Source: Myxococcota bacterium
Lineage (GTDB): Bacteria > Myxococcota > B64-G9
NCBI GenBank assembly: GCA_022710975.1
Contig: JAKLGA010000004.1
Coordinates: 124,001-188,000, forward strand
DNA length: 64,000 nt
Direction: 5' to 3'
This document shows, in pieces, positions 52,236 through 62,983 of the stretch. Every line of letters begins with the position of its first letter. The stretch's first letter is position 1. Position numbers and translations under genes: made by a program. The notes beneath the pieces are model-generated. The model ran no database searches. It was given only the letters and a program-made list of their open reading frames with translations, and was not told the origin of the DNA.

Positions 52236-52721
52236 CTAGAATAGTCTCCTTTGGTTGTTGTTGTCATCTGCGTTGATTTGTTTCATTTCCTTCTTTAGCT
52301 CAACACATGAAATCTTTCCAAATGCCTTGGCATCGAGATAGAAAAAACTCTGTGGTGCCCGCAAGCTCTGACTGATACTACTAAGGTCGATAGGTTTTTT
52401 TAGACGCTCTGCGTGGCTAACCCCTATCGCTATGCCATTTCTTCTGTTTCGGAAGTAGTGCTTATAGGTTTGCTCATTTATGCCCGAATCAGATCCAAAT
52501 CTTTTCCATAGGTCTGCAATCGATGCAACCTTAACGCCAGCGACACGAAAACAACCGACAACTTTTCCGATGGGTTCAGTGGCATACATCACGATAATGT
52601 GTACATTTCTTGCGAACCGAACCTTTCTAAACTCAACGCGCTTCCTTCCGTCGAGAATCATTTCTGCATACTCTGGATGGATCGACATCAGAGCTACTGA
52701 TCCAGCCGGCTTGTGAGCCAT
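52236..52721 (-). CDS. ASCH-domain protein
   Basis: This 161-residue protein starts at ATG 52721 with AGGAGG seven bases upstream. VALMSIHPEYAEMILDGRKR followed by VEFRKVRF is the classical ASCH start (binding loop GRKxVEFRK). IIVMYATEPIGKVVGCFRVA is the following strand pair. ASCH domains are PUA-like folds that bind or cut RNA, some with esterase or RNase activity. It overlaps the end of the PIN-GNAT gene by 28 bases, so the two are translated together. Confidence 0.85.
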   Translation of the reverse strand: MAHKPAGSVALMSIHPEYAEMILDGRKRVEFRKVRFARNVHIIVMYATEPIGKVVGCFRVAGVKVASIADLWKRFGSDSGINEQTYKHYFRNRRNGIAIGVSHAERLKKPIDLSSISQSLRAPQSFFYLDAKAFGKISCVELKKEMKQINADDNNNQRRLF

Positions 52722-54175
52722 GGCATGGCCTCCTTCGGGACGGTGACAATAGATTGCGGCGCACCTCTGAGTGCACCATTGTTCTTCATCTCGGTTAGGG
52801 ATATCGGAATGTCGAGGCACCTTGCCTGTCGAAATAGAATTGCAAGGACCCGTTTCTTGCACCATTCTTCAATTTCCATGTAGGTATATACAGTTCGGCT
52901 GCCGACGAACTTCGCGATTTCATTGGGAAGATTTGAGCCGATAGTTCGCTCTGTGATGCCCACAGTGTAAATACCCTGTCGCTCATGAGACCTGTAGAAT
53001 AGCAGGATTGAGGCAGGAGGTATCGCTTTGACCATGGATCCGCAAAGGTAGGCCTTCCTTATTGCGTTACCGTAGGGATGGCGCCCGGGAACGAGTTCTG
53101 GTTGTGGCTCGAGTTCGGGGAATAGCAATTTATGGTATTGGGGCCGTATTGGGACGACGAATGTTGGAACACCTGTGGTTCTGAAGAATCTAGGGCCATA
53201 CAGGATGTGGAAATCCATTGCTGTAAGGGAATCCGCGATGACAGTGGAGGGCTTGAGATGCTTTGCGAAATAGAGTTCCTTCGATACTGCCTTTGGTTGT
53301 GCTTCATTGAAGCCGAAAAGAGATAAGAGTCTGATTAGCTTCTCCTGCTTGGGCAGAGTAGTTAGGTACATCCAATCATATAGATTCTTATAGGAGTACT
53401 CAAAGATTGTTCGTAGTAGTAGTTCGCCGAATTTGCTACCTGCTGAATCGTCAGAGGCTTTAAATGTGCAGATCTTAAGAACACGACCTTCAAGTGAAAC
53501 GTCTGGATTTCTTTCCTCTTTGACGATTGCCACGCCACCATACTTCGCTGCGCCCGGATTGATCACGATCCATGCTTGACGATGCTCTCTCTTGCACTTG
53601 GCAAGCCATCCATCGAAGCCTTTGTAGTCATCTCTCAGGCTGGAGAATATCGGATCATGTTGGTCGATCTCGTGGGCTTTGATATTGCGAATTGCGGGAG
53701 GTGGCCGTGGGATCTTGTCGAGGAGACTCTGAAGAAGCTCAACTGCTCCATCGATGGAGTAAACACGATCTTCTAGTTGGAATCGTTCCGAAGTCTTCCA
53801 GATGCCACGATCATCTGTGACCAGAATGTCTACTGCATCGCCTGCAACTGCTGCGAGAAGTTGAAGATCGATAAGATCATGAGGGCCAGTGTGTGAACTT
53901 ATATTAGAGTCCTGCATTTCGTTTGAAGGTGCAGGAGGATTCTCAAGAATTTCATATTTTTTAAGGAGAGCTAACCGCATAGAGCGCCGATTTACATCCT
54001 TGTCGGCGGCGATCTCAGCTCTGCTGCTGGGATGATAGCAGATGTGATGACCCTTCTCGTTGGCATATCTGATTAGATCAATTGCCAGCGGTGTGCCAAG
54101 CTCAAGATCGCTTGGACTCGTTGGCTCAAGAGGAATCAGAATATTCGTGTCAACGAGGATTCTCAATGGCCTCAC
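52694..54175 (-). CDS. PIN-GNAT-PUA-like fusion protein
   Basis: This is a 493-residue product. Residues 1-140 are a PIN RNase domain: RILVDTNILIPL (D9), then DLIDLQLLAAVAGDAVDILV with TDDRG closing the acidic set. Residues about 175-290 read as a GNAT acetyltransferase (AWIVINPGAAKYGGVAIVKE, then KFGELLLRTIFEYSYKN). The last 150 residues (LCGSMVKAIPPASILLFYRS, GIYTVGITERTI) look like an EVE/ASCH-type PUA fold. GTG 54175 is chosen; alternatives are GTG 54208 or TTG 54166. PIN with GNAT fusions are typical of toxin-antitoxin or conflict systems. AT-rich. Confidence 0.8.
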   Translation of the reverse strand: MRPLRILVDTNILIPLEPTSPSDLELGTPLAIDLIRYANEKGHHICYHPSSRAEIAADKDVNRRSMRLALLKKYEILENPPAPSNEMQDSNISSHTGPHDLIDLQLLAAVAGDAVDILVTDDRGIWKTSERFQLEDRVYSIDGAVELLQSLLDKIPRPPPAIRNIKAHEIDQHDPIFSSLRDDYKGFDGWLAKCKREHRQAWIVINPGAAKYGGVAIVKEERNPDVSLEGRVLKICTFKASDDSAGSKFGELLLRTIFEYSYKNLYDWMYLTTLPKQEKLIRLLSLFGFNEAQPKAVSKELYFAKHLKPSTVIADSLTAMDFHILYGPRFFRTTGVPTFVVPIRPQYHKLLFPELEPQPELVPGRHPYGNAIRKAYLCGSMVKAIPPASILLFYRSHERQGIYTVGITERTIGSNLPNEIAKFVGSRTVYTYMEIEEWCKKRVLAILFRQARCLDIPISLTEMKNNGALRGAPQSIVTVPKEAMPWLTSRLDQ

Positions 54176-54224: not shown

Positions 54225-54230
54225 ATTATA
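54225..54230 (-). promoter_or_regulatory. Perfect TATAAT -10 element for the PIN-GNAT gene
   Basis: TATAAT on the minus strand at 54230-54225, about 50 bases before the GTG start at 54175. The matching -35 is weak. The element lies between the end of hsdR and the PIN gene, so the pair has its own promoter. Confidence 0.4.
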
Positions 54231-54241
54231 GAATAATGCCT

Positions 54242-57200
54242 CTAATCTGCCGTTAGATCGCGAACAACATCAGTCACGAATCGCTTGAACGAATCGTTCT
54301 CCACGAACTGCTTGTAGACCTGGGTGTCGTCGGTCAGCAGGGTCTGCATGACCTTGCTGAGCGCCTGGGCCATGGCCAGATTGGCGGTGTGCGGTGTGTT
54401 GGCCTTGGCGTTCTGGTACGCCTCGTCCGCGGCCACCTTGGGGGCGATGTCCTCGCGGATGCGCTTCACCACCCGGTCGGCGTCGGTGAACAGCGTTCCG
54501 AACGTGTCGTTGAACTGCTTGATGATGTTGCTCAGCTTGTCGAACTCCGGCTCTGGCTTGTGCCCGCCCCCGCCGGGCGGCACGGGCCCGATCTCCGAAT
54601 CCTTGTCCTTCAACGGGATCTCTAAGACCTTCTTCTTCTCGACCCGGTAGCTGTCCATGTCGATGGCTTCCAGGATGCCCTTGGCGAGATCCTCCTCCTT
54701 GGGCGTCGGAAGCTTGGGGATGAGCAAGTTCAGGAAGATGGACAGCTTCTCCCAGGCGACGTTGCTGTCTGGCAGGATCGAGGACAGGAAGCTGTAGGTC
54801 CGGCAAAAGGCCTTGGCGTTCCCCTTGAACTCCACCTGGCCGTTCTCGTCGAGCTTGGCCTTGTAGGTCTCCACGCACCCGTCGAGGATAGGATCGAGCG
54901 CGTCCCTAGGAGCCTCCTGGAGGAAGAGCGCGACGAGCTGGTCGACCTGTGCCGGCGCGTAGACCTGGGCGGCGTCCAGGGCGGCCTTCAGGTCGTGAAG
55001 CATGTTGGGGTCAGTCTCCTCGGCCAGCAGCGTCGTGCGGTAATAGTCCTGGAAGGCGAACTTGATGGCAGCGGCGCTGTTCTGGAAGTCGAGCACGAAG
55101 CAGTCGTGCTTCTGAGGATGGGCGCGGTTCAGGCGGGAGAGCGTCTGCACTGCCTTGATGCCTGCGAGCGGCTTGTCCACGTACATGGTGTGCAGCAGCG
55201 GCTCATCGTAGCCGGTCTGGAACTTGTCGGCGCAGACCAGGAAGCGGTACGGGTCCGCCCGGAACCGGTCGGCGATCTCGCTGCTGGAGAAACCGTTCAG
55301 CGAAACCTCGCTCACCTTGGCGCCGTGGTACTCGTGCTCTCCGGAGAACGCAACCAGGGCCTTGTAGACGCTCTTTTGATCCTCCAGATACTTCTTGATG
55401 GCGTGGTAGTACTGGACCGCCCGCTCGATGCCGTTGCAGATCACCATGGCCCGCGCCTGGCCGCCGATCTTGTGGAAGGCCAGCACCTGCTCGTGGAAGT
55501 GATCCACCACGATTTCGGCCTTGAGTTGGATGGCGTGGTCGTGGCTCTCGACGTACTTCCTCAGTTTTTTCCGCGCCCGCTTGACTTCGAACTCCGGGTC
55601 GTCCTTGGTCTTCTTGATGAGCTTGTAGTAGCTGTCTACCGGCGTGTAGGCCCGGAGCACGTCGAGGATGAAGCCCTCCTCGATGGCCTGCTTCATGGTG
55701 TAGCTGTGAAAAGGCCGATGCTTGACCTTGCCCTCGCCGTCGGGCGGCAGCGGCTCGCCGAACATCTCCAGGGTCTTGTTCTTGGGGGTGGCGGTGAAGG
55801 CGAAGTAGCTGGCGTTGGCCAGGAGCTTCTTCGCCGCCATTCGCTTCGCGAGGGCCTCATTGACCAAATCCTCGGGGTCGGGCCCGTCCTCCTCGTCCGT
55901 CACCGCGGCGTTCAACACCTGGCTCATGGCCGCCGCCGTCTTGCCGCCCTGGCTCGAGTGCGCCTCGTCGATGACGATGGCGAAGGTCTTGCCTGCCTCG
56001 GCGGCAATCTCGTCCAGGATGTAAGGGAACTTCTGCACCGTGGACACGATGATCTTCTTGCCCTGTTCGATGAACTTCTTTAGATCGCCCGAGTGCTCGG
56101 CGTGGCCCACCGTGGCGCCCACCTGCATGAACTGCTTGATGGTGCGCTGGAGCTGGTCGTCCAAGATGCGCCGGTCAGTGACCACGATGACCGAGTCGAA
56201 CACCTCCTTGCCTTGACGTCGCAGGCCGATGAGCTGGTGGGCGAGCCAGGCGATGGAGTTCGACTTGCCGCTGCCGGCCGAGTGCTGGACCAGGTAGCGC
56301 CGGCCTACTCCGTGGGTGCGGACGTCGGCCAGGGCAGCGCGCACCACGCCGAGCTGGTGGTAGCGCGGCCAGATCTGTAGGCGCTTCTTCTTACCGGTGT
56401 GCTTGTCCTTCTCCTCGACCATCTGGGCGTAGTTCTCGAGGATGTCGGTCAGCCCGGCTGGGGTGAGCACTTCCCGCCACAGGTAGGCGGTCTTCAAACC
56501 TTCCGGGTTGGGTGGGTTGCCCGCGCCGTCCTGATGGCCCTTGTTGAACGGCAGGAACCAGGAGCCCTTGCCGACGAGGCGGGTGCACATGCGCACCTCG
56601 GCGTCGTCCACGGCAAAGTGCACAGCGCAGCGGCCGAACTCGAAGAGTCGCTCCTTTGGGTTGCGGTCGTAGCAGTACTGCTGGACCGCGTCTGCCACGG
56701 TCTGCTTGGTCAAGCTGTTCTTGAGCTCGAAGGTGGCGATGGGCAGGCCGTTGATGAATAGGCACAGGTCGAGCGCGCGCTTGGTCTCTTCCGGGCTGAA
56801 CCGGAGCTGGCGGGTGACCGAGAAGCGGTTCTTCGCGTGCAGGGCCTGGGCCTTGGGGTTGCCCTCGGATGGGGTGCCGTAGAACAGGCCGAAGTGGCCG
56901 GCGGAGTTGTGTTCGATGCCTTTCCGCAGCACGTCCACCACGCCGCGCTTGCCGATCTCGGTCGAAAGCCGCTTGAGGAACTTGAGGCGCTTGATGTCCT
57001 TCGGATCGCCAGACATGCCGAGCTTTTTGAACGCCTCGGGCTGGGTGGCGCGGAGGAAGGCGAAGAGCTGGGGCACGTCGAGGGCATACTCGCGGTCGTA
57101 GTCCTGGGGACAGCCGGCCGTGTAGCCCGTACCGCCGTAGGGAGGAGGAGGCTCGGCAACCTGGTCCGGTGCGATGGCCAGACCGTCGGTGCCGGTCATG

Positions 57201-57250
57201 GCGCGCATGATGAGGGTCTCGAGGCCCTTCTCGGTGGTGTCGGTGGTCAT
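54242..57250 (-). CDS. hsdR: Type I restriction enzyme R subunit
   Basis: This is a 1002-residue protein. The N-terminal nuclease domain has LDLCLFINGLPIATFELKN, the D...E-x-K core. The SF2 translocase part has Walker A HSAGSGKSNS (about 325), DEAH in IVIDEAHSSQGG (about 428), FTATPKNKT and QTGYDEPLLHTMYVD. R subunits translocate DNA and cleave it at a distance when the HsdM/HsdS pair finds an unmethylated site. Last gene of the operon; its start overlaps the hsdS stop by four bases. Confidence 0.95.
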   Translation of the reverse strand: MTTDTTEKGLETLIMRAMTGTDGLAIAPDQVAEPPPPYGGTGYTAGCPQDYDREYALDVPQLFAFLRATQPEAFKKLGMSGDPKDIKRLKFLKRLSTEIGKRGVVDVLRKGIEHNSAGHFGLFYGTPSEGNPKAQALHAKNRFSVTRQLRFSPEETKRALDLCLFINGLPIATFELKNSLTKQTVADAVQQYCYDRNPKERLFEFGRCAVHFAVDDAEVRMCTRLVGKGSWFLPFNKGHQDGAGNPPNPEGLKTAYLWREVLTPAGLTDILENYAQMVEEKDKHTGKKKRLQIWPRYHQLGVVRAALADVRTHGVGRRYLVQHSAGSGKSNSIAWLAHQLIGLRRQGKEVFDSVIVVTDRRILDDQLQRTIKQFMQVGATVGHAEHSGDLKKFIEQGKKIIVSTVQKFPYILDEIAAEAGKTFAIVIDEAHSSQGGKTAAAMSQVLNAAVTDEEDGPDPEDLVNEALAKRMAAKKLLANASYFAFTATPKNKTLEMFGEPLPPDGEGKVKHRPFHSYTMKQAIEEGFILDVLRAYTPVDSYYKLIKKTKDDPEFEVKRARKKLRKYVESHDHAIQLKAEIVVDHFHEQVLAFHKIGGQARAMVICNGIERAVQYYHAIKKYLEDQKSVYKALVAFSGEHEYHGAKVSEVSLNGFSSSEIADRFRADPYRFLVCADKFQTGYDEPLLHTMYVDKPLAGIKAVQTLSRLNRAHPQKHDCFVLDFQNSAAAIKFAFQDYYRTTLLAEETDPNMLHDLKAALDAAQVYAPAQVDQLVALFLQEAPRDALDPILDGCVETYKAKLDENGQVEFKGNAKAFCRTYSFLSSILPDSNVAWEKLSIFLNLLIPKLPTPKEEDLAKGILEAIDMDSYRVEKKKVLEIPLKDKDSEIGPVPPGGGGHKPEPEFDKLSNIIKQFNDTFGTLFTDADRVVKRIREDIAPKVAADEAYQNAKANTPHTANLAMAQALSKVMQTLLTDDTQVYKQFVENDSFKRFVTDVVRDLTAD

Positions 57251-58584
57251 CCGGCAGCCTCCTCGTCGTCGGGCTCTGCCTCGTTGCCAAGGTCGGCGTC
57301 GTCCTCGGCCGGCGCGGGTTCGACCTCTGCCGGCAGCTTCGCCGCCGCTTCGCGTACGTCCAGCTTGCCCGTCACCACGTCGGCGATTAGGCGGGTGCGG
57401 TACTCGCGAATTGCCTTTTCGAACCGACTTATAGTTTCAGAAAGCAGTGTTTCAAGCTTCACAATGTCCACTATTCGTTGCTGTACGGAAATCGGTGGAA
57501 TCGGAATCTTCTCCTTCAGCAGAGTTCGTGGATTTAGGGGTCGGTTCCGGCCAGCTGCTCCTCGCGAATGGTGGTCAAGCAACAACGCACCGAACTTCGT
57601 CTTAAGCATCGCAAGAAGTACGGAAGCCGACAGGTATTGGAGCCGTGCTCGGAGGATCGGGAAGCGATGCGATGCGATACAGCCGGCATCACTTGTACCG
57701 GCCACCGCGATAGCGCCTTCCCATGCAAACTGTCCACTCAGAACTAGATCATCCTGCTCGATCCAGAAGAACTCCGAGTCGCCCAAGTTCGCACCTTCAG
57801 TCAGTGGCTTGTGGAAGATTCCACGACCTCGGTTGAAAAGTCCGATTGGCGTATAGGTCTGCTGCTTCTGGCGTTCGATCGGCCGCCATATCTGCTCTGC
57901 AGCCACGCCCAAACGGACACTCAGCGCTGCAGGCGACTGCATTGCACTTTCAGTTATCGTCTGGCGAATCTCACCCAGCAGTGCCAACTCGTTCCGCTTC
58001 GCCCGGATGGCACGATCCAGCCGCCCGGTCGCCCAGTCCAGGAACCGAACGATGGCTGCCTGCTCTGAGGGAGGGGGTAGGGTTACATCAATATTGCCGA
58101 GTCTCGTTTCTGATATGGCTGGATAGGCAATCCCAACCGACTCTGCCGTCACTTGATGCGTAAAAGCATCGGACTGAGCGACGTATCCGAGACATCTAGG
58201 GGTAGTGTCCGCTCGCGGCGACAAAACGGCAAACCCGGTGGAGGCCACGAGAGGCTGACTGAACTCATTCACCGTCAGCACGGCCTTGAGATAGGTGCGG
58301 ACAGTAGAGACGATCGTGTCGCCTGAACGAAGTACCCTTCTGGCCCTCGATGGGGCATCTGCGAAGCGCACGCGAGAAGGACGTTTCGCCAGTCGTCCGG
58401 TGGTCACGGAACCAATGTCGAGATAGTCAAACGCGAAATCAGGTGGCGTGTCCTCGCCAAGTGTGCGGCGATTGATTGTCACCCAGTTCTTTAGCCTTTG
58501 GACAGCCCAATGGCTCGGCACCCGCCCGAGCCACGGCAGTCCGGACTCCTTGTACTCCGGGTAGGGCTTGAGGTCGGCTATCAC
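57247..58584 (-). CDS. hsdS: Type I restriction enzyme S (specificity) subunit
   Basis: This 445-residue protein has two target-recognition domains. The first begins YPEYKESGLPWLGRVPSHW and ends LPPPSEQAAIVRFLDWA; the second ends IPPISVQQRIVDIVKLETLL. Both halves close with the conserved long helices. It sets the DNA site recognised by HsdM and HsdR. The C-terminal 40 residues are acidic and Ala/Glu-rich, unusual for HsdS. Its start overlaps the stop of the DUF262 gene by four bases, and its stop overlaps the hsdR start by four. Confidence 0.95.
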   Translation of the reverse strand: MIADLKPYPEYKESGLPWLGRVPSHWAVQRLKNWVTINRRTLGEDTPPDFAFDYLDIGSVTTGRLAKRPSRVRFADAPSRARRVLRSGDTIVSTVRTYLKAVLTVNEFSQPLVASTGFAVLSPRADTTPRCLGYVAQSDAFTHQVTAESVGIAYPAISETRLGNIDVTLPPPSEQAAIVRFLDWATGRLDRAIRAKRNELALLGEIRQTITESAMQSPAALSVRLGVAAEQIWRPIERQKQQTYTPIGLFNRGRGIFHKPLTEGANLGDSEFFWIEQDDLVLSGQFAWEGAIAVAGTSDAGCIASHRFPILRARLQYLSASVLLAMLKTKFGALLLDHHSRGAAGRNRPLNPRTLLKEKIPIPPISVQQRIVDIVKLETLLSETISRFEKAIREYRTRLIADVVTGKLDVREAAAKLPAEVEPAPAEDDADLGNEAEPDDEEAAG

Positions 58585-60683
58585 GCCTGGCCCCCGTCGC
58601 CTATCTGCCGCTCGAACGCCTGGCGCACGAGGCCAATGACATAGGGCAGCTCGTCGAGCGAGCTCAGCATCACCTCCACGTCACCATTCCCCCACCGACC
58701 AAGGCTAGTCACATCCCGGCATAAGCCCTTCGGGTCGATGATCTCGGGAAAAGGCATGTTGAGGCTCAGCCGCATCCGCTTGGTCTGCGGTACGACGTCC
58801 ACGAAGTTGGTCTCGGCCTTGTATGCCACGTACAGCTTCATGAACTCCTCGGTCACGCAGCTATCCAGCTCGAGCACCTGTCTGCGGAACGCCTGGAATA
58901 CGTCGCGGAGAGCGGGCCCCAGCAAGTGCTTGTGGTCCTCGATGGTGTAGCCTCCAACCTCCGGCCTCGTCCTCTTCCGGTAGCTCGCCACGGTCGCCTC
59001 GTCGATGCTAGGCATGGACCACACGGCGAGCGCCTGGTCGGCCAGGCGCCCGGCACGGGCTATGATGGCCGCCTCGTTCCAGGTCTCGAGCTGCCCAAGT
59101 CCCTCGTTCAGCCTGAGCGGGCTATGCTTGAAGCCGCCCGGCATGTCCCGCTTTTCGGTGAATGGCCGGTCGCCGTACTCGGAGTTGTAGCCCGTGAGGG
59201 TGAGGTTGCCCAGGGTGTGCAGGTACTGTTCCTGGACCTGCTGGTGCTTCTCGCCAAGCGCCTGCTTCCAGGCGGCCGAGAGCTCAGGATTCTGCGGGAG
59301 GATGTGCTCAATGGTGACTTCGCCCATCGCCACGCGCTCTTTGCGGCCGTGGTTCTCCATCTTGCGTAGCCAGTAGCTGCGGCTGCGGAAGTTGTACAGG
59401 TCGCGCGTCTGCAGGGCGCGCTTGAACTCCTCATCCCCGGGGAACCGCCGGTAGGAGGGCAGAAGGAGGAAGTGGGCCTGGATACTCTCGAGGTAGCGGT
59501 CCTTCTTGAGCGCCTTGCCGAACGTGGCGAAGGTCTTGTTCATCGAGTTGGTGGGGATGGAGCAGATGGCGCGACGGAAGACGTAGGCCTCGACCATCCG
59601 TACGGCCGCCTCGAAGTCCTCTGCCTTGAGCCTCTGGTTCGCAAAGTCGTCGTACAGCTCGAGCAGGAACGGGTAGGCCACGTCTACCTTCAGCTCCCGT
59701 AGGTCCTTGAAGGCGAGCTTGAGTCCGGCCTCCTGTTCATTCCCCAGCGCCATGGCGCAGAAGTACCGGGCGAAGGCACGGATTTCCTTTACCAGCGCCT
59801 CGATGCCCGCCCCCACCACGGGCTTCGTGCGGGAATGGTCCTTGAACGCCTCATACACCTCGTGCTCGCGCGGGATGTCGCCCGTCTTCACGGTGAGGTA
59901 GTGGCGCATGAAGCTGTCGAACCGGGCGTCGTAGGCCTCCTGGCCGAAGTCCTGCTCCATCGGCCGCCAGTACTCCATGTAGAGCCGGTTCTGGAGCTCG
60001 GGCTCGAGCCCCATGAGGATGAAGTTGCGGATGAGGTCGGCCTGGCTCAGCTCCTTGCCGGTCGAGTTCATGCTCTCGAAGATGAGCTGCGGGTTGTCCT
60101 GGTCGCGGCTGAGTGCCACGTCCACGATGACCAGCTTGCCGAGCCCCTGGAACACTCCAGCCAGGTCGCCCTTCTGGCCCTCGATGAGCCGCTCGAACAT
60201 CTCGAAGTTCTCTTGCACCCGCAGCGAAGGCTCCCTGGGCAGCTCCGTGTTCCGGATGACGGCCTTGAGGGTGTCGTTGTCAGTCTGGGAGAGGAGCAGC
60301 TTGAAGAAGCGGTCGCCCTTCTCGAGCCGGTTCGTGAGGTAGTACTCGCGCAGTTTGTTGGCCGACAAGCCGTCCACGGGCTCGTCTTCGCCCACAGCGC
60401 GAGCCAGCGCCTCGAGCAGGAGAGACACTGTGGTCAGCCGCTGCTGTCCGTCGATCACCAGGAGTGGCGCCTGGTGCGTGACCTGCGAGAGCCCCTGCTC
60501 GATGTAGACGATTGAGCCGATGAAGTGGACGGAGATGGCGTCGCTCGATCCCGCCCGAACGATATCGTCCCAGAGCTGCTGGACCTGCTTCTCGGTCCAG
60601 GAGTAGGTGCGCTGGTAGATCGGGATGATGAACTGCTGCGACTTGTGGAGGAAGGTGAGCAGCTTGGCTTCGTTGGCTTTCAC
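58581..60683 (-). CDS. DUF262/DUF1524 protein embedded in the type I operon
   Basis: This is a 700-residue protein. The DUF262 N-terminus has FIIPIYQRTYSWTEKQVQQL and LLVIDGQQRLTTVSLL. LIFESMNSTGKELSQADLIR follows (about 200). The DUF1524 HNH-like motif is TIEHILPQNP near residue 458, then LGNLTLTGYN. It is a full-length GmrSD-like protein, so it may be a second restriction enzyme against modified DNA, carried with the methylation-sensitive one. It overlaps hsdM and hsdS by four bases on each side (ATGA), which shows it is a fixed part of the operon. Confidence 0.9.
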   Translation of the reverse strand: MKANEAKLLTFLHKSQQFIIPIYQRTYSWTEKQVQQLWDDIVRAGSSDAISVHFIGSIVYIEQGLSQVTHQAPLLVIDGQQRLTTVSLLLEALARAVGEDEPVDGLSANKLREYYLTNRLEKGDRFFKLLLSQTDNDTLKAVIRNTELPREPSLRVQENFEMFERLIEGQKGDLAGVFQGLGKLVIVDVALSRDQDNPQLIFESMNSTGKELSQADLIRNFILMGLEPELQNRLYMEYWRPMEQDFGQEAYDARFDSFMRHYLTVKTGDIPREHEVYEAFKDHSRTKPVVGAGIEALVKEIRAFARYFCAMALGNEQEAGLKLAFKDLRELKVDVAYPFLLELYDDFANQRLKAEDFEAAVRMVEAYVFRRAICSIPTNSMNKTFATFGKALKKDRYLESIQAHFLLLPSYRRFPGDEEFKRALQTRDLYNFRSRSYWLRKMENHGRKERVAMGEVTIEHILPQNPELSAAWKQALGEKHQQVQEQYLHTLGNLTLTGYNSEYGDRPFTEKRDMPGGFKHSPLRLNEGLGQLETWNEAAIIARAGRLADQALAVWSMPSIDEATVASYRKRTRPEVGGYTIEDHKHLLGPALRDVFQAFRRQVLELDSCVTEEFMKLYVAYKAETNFVDVVPQTKRMRLSLNMPFPEIIDPKGLCRDVTSLGRWGNGDVEVMLSSLDELPYVIGLVRQAFERQIGDGGQA

Positions 60684-62983
60684 TTCTTGCCCCCCTTCAG
60701 CAGCCCGTCCAAGAGACCTTCGGTCTCCTTCTCAATGGCCAGGATGTCGGCGCGGATCTCCTCCAGGGTGCGCAGCGGCTGCGGCTTGTAGAAGTGCCGG
60801 GTGAAGCTCACCTCGTAGCCCACCTTGGTGGCCCCCTCCTTGATCCACGCATCCGGAGTGTAGGGCAGCACCTCGCGCTTGATGAAGGCCTCGACACCTC
60901 CCTCTTCGAGGAGAGGTACCTGCTCGGTGTCGCGCAGCTCGGAGTCGGGCTCGTACTCGACCACGACCGTCTTGCCTCCCACCTTGGCCTCGAACAGGCC
61001 GTGCAGCGGGTCGGCCTTGGCCTTGCCCGGCTTGTACACCTTGCCGATCACCGGCGGCGCACCCTCGACCCGGAAGCTCACGGCGTTCATGAGCTGCTTC
61101 CGGTCCGCGGCCGACAGCCGGATGTCCGCCTTCTCGAGCGCGGCGTCCACCTGATCGCTGAATGCGTTGTAGTCCTCGAAGAGCTTGTCCCCAAGCGCCC
61201 GCCGGAGCAGACCTGCCACCTCGACCAGCCTCGCGTCCCGCTCCCAGGTCTTGGGGTCCAGAAGCTTCTTCCGCTTCTTGTCAGACAGCCCCTTTTTCTT
61301 GCCCCCGCCTTCCTCGTCGTCGTCCCCTTCCTCGTCGGTGCCCCAGTCGTCGAGCCGTTTCTCGACCGCCTTGGTTACCTTGGCGAAGTCGGTGAACAGC
61401 CTGTCGCCGAGGTCCTCGTACAGCGCGGAGCGGATTTCCTCATCGCCCGAGTTGAAGCGGAGCGGCTCGATGGCCTTGGGGGTGAGCTGACCGTGCAGCC
61501 TGAGGGGCCGCTCCACCACCACCTTCCTGTAGCCGAACGCCTCGTTGGGGAAGATCTTCGACTCGGGCGTCTCCTTGAACTCGTGGAAGGTCTTGCAGAT
61601 GCGCTCGATGTCCTCGGGCGAGAGCTCGCAGTTCTTCTTGCCCAGGTTCTTACGCAGCGGCTTGAACCACTGGGTCGCGTCGATGAGCTGGACCTTGCCC
61701 TTGCGCTGCGCAGGCTTCTTGTTGGAGAGCACCCAGACGTAGGTGGCGATGCCTGTGTTGTAGAACATGTTGAGCGGCAGGGCCACGATGGCCTCTAGCC
61801 AGTCGTTCTCGATCAGCCAGCGGCGGATGTTGCTCTCGCCCTGGCCCGCGTCGCCGGTGAAGAGCGAGCTGCCGTTGTGGACCTCGGCGATGCGGCTCCC
61901 GAGCGCGGACTTGGGGTTCATCTTCGAGACCATGTTGGCCAGGAAGAGCATCTGCCCGTCGCTCGAGCGGGTGATCAGCGACAGCTCCTCGCCCTGGTGC
62001 ATCACCCTGAAGCGCGGATCGCTAAAGCCCTCCTTGCCCCCCATGGTCTCGAGGTCCTTCTTCCAGCTCTTCCCGTAGGGCGGGTTCGAGAGCATGAAGT
62101 CGAACTCCTTGGCCGGGAAGGCGTCGTGCGCCAGGGTGGACCACTCGGCCCCGCCCCGGATGTGGTCGGCGTTGTCGCCCTCGCCCTTGAGCAGCATGTC
62201 CGCCTTGCACACCGCGAAGGTCTCGGGGTTGATCTCCTGGCCGTAGAGCACGCTGGTGATCTTCTGCTTGCGCTTCGCGCCGAGGTCCTTGAGCGTCTCC
62301 TCGGCCACTGTCAGCATGCCGCCCGTGCCGCAGGCGCAGTCGTACAGGAGGTAGGTGCCGGATTTGAGCCGGTCCTCGATGGGCAGGAACACCAGCTCGG
62401 CCATCAGCCGGACCGCGTCGCGCGGGGTCCAGTGCTCGCCGGCCTCCTCGTTGTTCTCCTCGTTGAAGCGGCGGACCAGCTCCTCGAAGATGGTGCCCAT
62501 GGCGTGGTTGTCGATGGCCGCCGGCGAAAGGTCCACGTCAGGATCCAGGAATTTCTCGAGCAACGTGCCGATGGCGTCGTTCTTGGCGAGTGTGGGGATC
62601 TGGTTCCTGAACTTGAAGTTCTCCAGGATGTCCTGGACGTTGGGCGAGAAGCCGTCGAGGTAGTCCTCGAAGTCGGCCCGCAGCTTCTGCTGGCTGCCGA
62701 TGGACTTCAGGTCCTTCAGGGTGAACTTCGAGGTGTTGTAGAAGGCCTGGCCCGCGACCGCGCACAGGGCCGCGCGTTGCTCGGTGATCTTGGACTTGTC
62801 GAGCATCTTCTTGGTCTCGAGCACCTTCGCCTTGGTGGGCTCGAGCACGGCGTCCATGCGGCGGATGACGCACATGGGCAGGATGACGTCCGGGTACTTC
62901 CCGCGCTTGAAGAGGTCGCGCAGCACGTCGTCGGCGATTCCCCAGATGAAGGAGACGATCTTGTTGTGAGTTGCCTGGTCCAT
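60680..62983 (-). CDS. hsdM: Type I DNA methyltransferase M subunit
   Basis: This 767-residue protein has the four-helix N-terminal part (FIWGIADDVLRDLFKRGKYP), HWTPRDAVRLMAEL, the AdoMet motif CACGTGGML (about 215) and the catalytic NPPY in FMLSNPPYGKSW (about 298). It is about 250 residues longer than a common HsdM: after residue about 520 comes an acidic/Lys insert (EEGDDDEEGGGKKKGLSDKK) and a C-terminal domain shared by the long HsdM branch. It methylates adenine in the site chosen by HsdS. ATG 62983 is the first gene of the operon. Confidence 0.95.
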   Translation of the reverse strand: MDQATHNKIVSFIWGIADDVLRDLFKRGKYPDVILPMCVIRRMDAVLEPTKAKVLETKKMLDKSKITEQRAALCAVAGQAFYNTSKFTLKDLKSIGSQQKLRADFEDYLDGFSPNVQDILENFKFRNQIPTLAKNDAIGTLLEKFLDPDVDLSPAAIDNHAMGTIFEELVRRFNEENNEEAGEHWTPRDAVRLMAELVFLPIEDRLKSGTYLLYDCACGTGGMLTVAEETLKDLGAKRKQKITSVLYGQEINPETFAVCKADMLLKGEGDNADHIRGGAEWSTLAHDAFPAKEFDFMLSNPPYGKSWKKDLETMGGKEGFSDPRFRVMHQGEELSLITRSSDGQMLFLANMVSKMNPKSALGSRIAEVHNGSSLFTGDAGQGESNIRRWLIENDWLEAIVALPLNMFYNTGIATYVWVLSNKKPAQRKGKVQLIDATQWFKPLRKNLGKKNCELSPEDIERICKTFHEFKETPESKIFPNEAFGYRKVVVERPLRLHGQLTPKAIEPLRFNSGDEEIRSALYEDLGDRLFTDFAKVTKAVEKRLDDWGTDEEGDDDEEGGGKKKGLSDKKRKKLLDPKTWERDARLVEVAGLLRRALGDKLFEDYNAFSDQVDAALEKADIRLSAADRKQLMNAVSFRVEGAPPVIGKVYKPGKAKADPLHGLFEAKVGGKTVVVEYEPDSELRDTEQVPLLEEGGVEAFIKREVLPYTPDAWIKEGATKVGYEVSFTRHFYKPQPLRTLEEIRADILAIEKETEGLLDGLLKGGKK

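Follow-up and report, generated by a model that had tools for sequence, protein, structure and literature searches.

Two overlapping genes in a 64,000-nt stretch of DNA from a Myxococcota bacterium (the window) form an intact example of a candidate module that has been catalogued before. They come last in a row of restriction-modification genes that reads as one operon. Gene A encodes a fusion of PIN, GNAT and EVE/PUA-like domains, and gene B encodes an ASCH protein (Table 1). Our main reading, to which we assign a probability of about one half, is that the pair belongs to the (PIN)-GNAT-EVE plus ASCH kind of module and acts against phages in the manner of a toxin-antitoxin system, with an RNA-targeting A held in check by B.

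The family is widespread in bacteria, archaea, plasmids and prophages. A description appeared in 2020, and PADLOC-DB (2023) lists the family among its defence candidates. New here are the identification of ZmASCH as the closest solved relative of B, the absence from B of the YqfB nucleophile, the recurrence of the gene overlap across phyla, the position of a PIN-less form behind a repressor-like gene in viral loci, and the occurrence of broken copies of A next to an intact B.

Table 1. Features of the A/B locus and the upstream restriction operon (positions within the window)
Feature	Position	Strand	Remarks
Gene B, ASCH protein, 161 aa	52236..52721	minus	ATG start; PADLOC PDC-M11B; closest solved relative ZmASCH (PDB 5gus/5guq)
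A/B overlap, 28 bp	52694..52721	minus	holds start of B
Gene A, PIN-GNAT-EVE/PUA-like fusion	52694..54175	minus	GTG start; PADLOC PDC-M11A
TATAAT hexamer	54225..54230	minus	in 66-nt hsdR-A gap; promoter role not supported
hsdR	54242..57250	minus	directly upstream of A; context, outside pair
hsdS	57247..58584	minus	context
GmrSD/DUF262-type gene with C-terminal DUF5655	58581..60683	minus	between hsdM and hsdS; context
hsdM	60680..62983	minus	context; named by reading the sequence; start predicted at MDQATHNK

The product of A is about 492 amino acids long (493 codons as read here) and comprises a PIN part (about residues 1-150), a GNAT part (157-311) and an EVE/PUA-like part (336-492). In a profile scan, the window copy of A had no Pfam or NCBIfam match. 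Nevertheless, the first-pass annotation, which had read A as a PIN-GNAT-PUA-like fusion, is borne out by profile matches of relatives, by the folds in the predicted model and by conserved residues. The models of both proteins are confident (mean pLDDT 84 for A, 90 for B).

Relatives of A match PIN_3 with E-values of 2.1e-4 at best, which is below the Pfam cut-off. An alignment of 17 PIN sequences shows an unchanging aspartate at D9, D100 and D122 and either D or E at positions 54 (E54 in the window) and 103 (D103 in the window). The PIN assignment rests on sequence, namely these weak matches in relatives and the conserved acidic residues. A sequence search of the PIN part against solved structures returned nothing significant, and the structural comparison barely covered this part, giving no fold match for it alone.

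For the GNAT part, relatives match Acetyltransf_1 (best E 2e-10), and residues 157-311 of the model resemble GNAT structures with Z up to 15.9, although the resemblance is to the general GNAT fold only. K234, T237, G250 and F289 do not vary, and G246 varies very little. The acetyl-CoA loop is present, as are the PIN acidic residues; the first-pass annotation had singled out both for checking. Residues 336-492 adopt a PUA-like fold in the model (Z 14.2 against ZmASCH). It is by homology that this domain is named EVE and not some other PUA-like fold, with relatives matching Pfam EVE weakly (2e-3).

Every domain of A, and B as well, has a dN/dS of 0.12-0.15 across six related species, so the conservation is more than chance, and all parts of A are under purifying selection together with B. 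A can probably both acetylate and cleave RNA within a single protein.

B matches the ASCH family (PF04266, E 1.5e-6), as the first-pass annotation had proposed for the overlapping gene. Its closest solved relative is ZmASCH (Zymomonas mobilis ZMO0922), with a sequence E-value of 3e-14 and a fold TMq of 0.77. ZmASCH binds nucleic acid and, with Mg2+, weakly cleaves single-stranded RNA between a pyrimidine and A; Y47 and S128 matter in this protein, and K53 helps binding (PMC5615036). Y47 and S128 correspond to Y46 and S125 in B, which are invariant in the family, and Q127 and Y90 of ZmASCH are also shared with B. By contrast, K53 is replaced by G52 in the window protein, although some relatives keep the lysine. 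Among the matches listed, the plasmid relatives of ZmASCH are mostly B partners of PIN-GNAT-EVE loci.

The start of B, within the overlap, is preceded at 7 nt by a strong ribosome-binding site (AAGGAGG) that lies inside the end of A, suggesting that B is translationally coupled to A. The overlap recurs across phyla. It is 23 nt long in 81, 28 nt in 12 and 29 nt in 10 of 103 pairs, counts that include redundant viral loci and, more than once, the window locus.

Upstream of A, on the same strand, hsdM, the GmrSD/DUF262 gene, hsdS and hsdR follow one another, each overlapping the next by 4 bp. A begins 66 nt downstream of hsdR. The first-pass annotation had placed the pair in an AT-rich island beside a restriction operon with a TATAAT of its own. 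The island is evident: GC content is 48.5% in A and 44.4% in B, versus about 63% in hsdR and hsdM and about 72-75% in the far half of the window. The hexamer exists too, but the promoter scan found no site at it and no excess of sites (3 found, 2.6 expected), leaving a separate promoter for A and B unsupported. GC3 is 0.49 in A and 0.46 in B versus 0.90 in hsdR, and the pair was therefore probably acquired separately from the restriction genes.

The genome has one copy each of A and B. In the same AT-rich stretch is a gene for a TIGR04255 family protein (window:49772-50590, E 8e-18). A plus-strand ORF that overlaps the upstream side of hsdM and reaches the window end (window:63180-63998) reads like an HNH endonuclease.

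The two genes are nearly always found together. Strong A homologues are present in 14 of 195 genomes of the phylum, and B is present in all 14, where it overlaps or adjoins A (hypergeometric P=4e-18, computed on a sample whose related species are not independent). Conversely, 18 genomes of the phylum have B, which is accompanied by A or a remnant in 15 and stands without A in three. Over all collected loci, A occurs in 126 of the 127 with B, the exception being cut by a contig end; this count again includes redundant viral loci and repeats of the window locus. B lies beside A in every intact locus examined; the first-pass annotation would have counted it as refuted had the two genes never co-occurred.

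At least five loci (L023, L030, L043, L054 and L066) have a disrupted or shortened A next to an intact B, although some of these broken copies may be sequencing errors. In alphaproteobacteria, a gene for an XRE HTH-ASCH fusion precedes A. Plasmids and prophages carry the pair, and it also occurs next to restriction genes, with hsdM and/or hsdR near it in L140 and L038 as well. In one related genus, by contrast, it is syntenic and vertically inherited at a conserved place. A scan of genome contigs yielded a single relative.

The first-pass annotation knew of no named system with this pair, and here it was mistaken. Both genes are full-length matches to phage defence candidate PDC-M11 of PADLOC, with no difference found: A matches PDLC04421 (PDC-M11A) with E 5.1e-167, its residues 5-492 covering positions 2-485 of a 486-position profile, and B matches PDLC04425 (PDC-M11B) with E 4e-44. 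PDC-M11 is itself only a candidate defence system in PADLOC.

Bell et al. 2020 (PMC7641849), citing Iyer et al. 2013, described operons in which a (PIN)-GNAT-EVE fusion is accompanied by an ASCH gene and, in many cases, by an AAA_17 ATPase. They found the PIN form closely linked to type I restriction genes and the PIN-less form to prophages, and also noted HTH-ASCH fusions in alphaproteobacteria and HsdS-ASCH fusions. They proposed a toxin-antitoxin function and described all the modules as uncharacterised. The window shares with these operons the fusion order, the ASCH partner and the type I restriction neighbourhood, which is frequent but not obligatory, although it lacks an AAA_17 gene beside the pair and an HTH on the ASCH gene. 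Both PDC-M11 and Bell et al. accord with how the first-pass annotation read the domains and with its proposal that two PUA-like folds work in a conflict system. Its interpretation is borne out in part, with RNA attack by PIN under the control of acetylation as a candidate mechanism. Our literature search for the pair found only this one relevant paper, and no toxicity, neutralisation or phage assay for any member.

A third label occurs in GenBank record PV340567, where a PIN-less pair in the lambdoid Escherichia phage PhiR47_2 is annotated as GevT toxin and GevA antitoxin. The name GevT was found in this record only, and the literature search gave no paper on it. Like the window pair, GevT and GevA are encoded as GNAT-EVE followed by ASCH in overlapping genes. 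Unlike it, they lack the PIN domain, overlap by 23 nt and lie behind a phage repressor. The archaeal prophage psiM100 also has a PIN-GNAT-EVE gene (ORFD, 31% identity) followed by an ASCH gene (ORF5), in this case with a 23-nt overlap. In psiM100 (L012:3054-6346), most of ORFD lies within the insert IFa, and the ORF5 ASCH gene is annotated also in psiM2, which may therefore keep B without A.

Among better-known toxins, the GNAT toxins AtaT, TacT and KacT and PIN toxins such as VapC share enzyme folds and a two-gene layout with A/B. However, A joins the two putative activities in a single polypeptide and adds an EVE domain. Moreover, the usual antitoxin of those toxins binds DNA, whereas the partner of A is an ASCH protein.

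The PIN-less form has a recurrent position in phages. A scan of viral sequences with the window protein alone gave no match, and viral loci were fetched with B; many are near-identical, so that the total of 79 is redundant. In 39 of the 79, a repressor-like HTH gene of the same orientation ends less than 500 nt before the pair. These repressor-adjacent loci are mostly from related enterobacterial phages, and in six example loci the gene was confirmed by PHROGs as a repressor or regulator. In PhiR47_2, the pair directly follows cI. The same place behind the repressor is taken in phage lambda by rexAB, genes that are active in the lysogen and keep other phages out. By analogy, this rexAB-like position supports a putative superinfection-exclusion role for the PIN-less form. 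Copies next to repressors in E. coli prophages, together with the link to ZmASCH, which has been crystallised and whose RNA binding and weak cleavage have been measured, offer a direct route to testing the family.

For the module as a whole, we infer a substrate, a toxicity, an antitoxin role and a trigger as follows. A would be the effector. Its EVE domain would dock on a particular, probably modified, nucleotide of an RNA, most plausibly a tRNA. The GNAT domain might then acetylate the bound RNA (an aminoacyl-tRNA or a base), and/or the PIN domain might cut it, and translation would stop in the infected cell. Translational coupling would match the level of B to that of A, and B would restrain A by binding it or by covering the same RNA. 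In relatives with the HTH-ASCH fusion, B could also repress the operon.

Several observations speak for this toxin-antitoxin-like reading. The layout is that of such modules, with overlapping co-directional genes and a partner, B, that is kept where A is lost. In addition to the pairing, the overlap and the intact B beside broken A, the PADLOC candidate families, the HTH-ASCH fusions and the repressor position argue for it, as do the RNA binding and cleavage of ZmASCH, the intact PIN and GNAT residues, and the low dN/dS. On the other side, the nucleic acid read by EVE and ASCH could be DNA; for ASCH, Bell et al. prefer modified DNA in view of the HTH-ASCH and HsdS-ASCH fusions. Vertical inheritance in one related genus is also less typical of a mobile toxin-antitoxin module.

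DNA reading is the basis of an alternative that we consider possible, though somewhat unlikely: the pair may be an accessory to restriction, with EVE and ASCH recognising modified bases in incoming DNA, the pair acting where HsdR is blocked, and B reading DNA instead of serving as an antitoxin. This would fit the place of A/B directly after hsdR on the same strand, the Hsd genes in two other loci, and the frequent type I proximity and HsdS-ASCH fusions reported by Bell et al. However, RNA is the normal substrate of PIN domains, the GC3 contrast points to separate acquisition, and most inspected loci have no match to the window Hsd proteins within their flanks, a search in which distant Hsd proteins could be missed. 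A housekeeping role in RNA modification or RNA decay, with no part in conflict, would agree with the synteny, vertical inheritance and purifying selection seen in one genus. It is nonetheless very doubtful, given the patchy distribution (14 of 195 genomes), the plasmid, prophage and restriction-gene settings, and the foreign base composition in the window.

Other alternatives assign B a different part in RNA chemistry. Two RNA enzymes might act in series, A tagging and cutting and B serving as a single-strand RNase like ZmASCH, which would make both effectors and neither an antitoxin. The homology to ZmASCH and the conserved Y47 and S128 are compatible with this idea, but we judge it unlikely: the activity of ZmASCH is weak, K53 is lost in B, and the HTH-ASCH fusions and the intact B beside broken A better fit a regulator or antitoxin. 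Quite unlikely, in our view, is a three-step RNA surveillance in which EVE reads a modified nucleotide, GNAT acetylates that nucleotide or a charged tRNA, and the RNA so tagged is cleaved by PIN, while the ASCH protein, as an RNA reader or weak RNase, picks the RNAs to be spared.

B might also be an eraser that removes the acetyl group set by the GNAT domain of A, as YqfB does with N4-acetylcytidine. E. coli YqfB, an N4-acetylcytidine amidohydrolase, requires Lys, Thr and Arg at a fixed spacing (PMC6972931). B shares the YqfB fold (Foldseek rank 19, TMq 0.48, E 2.3e-4), and the spacing of YqfB K21 and R26 is kept in B as the invariant K27 and R32. However, the nucleophile Thr24 falls on E30, and this position is Glu in all 27 aligned sequences. 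We therefore rejected B as an amidohydrolase of the YqfB type, and an eraser role is highly improbable.

Some loci of the family have further features. In Lactobacillus prophage Lj965 (L045:1804-3899), the PIN-less pair occurs just after four tRNA genes. A general linkage to tRNA genes was considered and discarded, as any tRNA gene was present in just 2 of 47 scanned loci. A small AAA_17 P-loop (kinase-like) gene, absent beside the window pair, recurs beside the pair in L003, L004, L008 and L009. On a plasmid of Caulobacter rhizosphaerae (L135:1864-4453), a 713-aa variant of A has an extra N-terminal GNAT domain before the PIN domain and a PUA-like C-terminus, and is followed by an overlapping ASCH gene.
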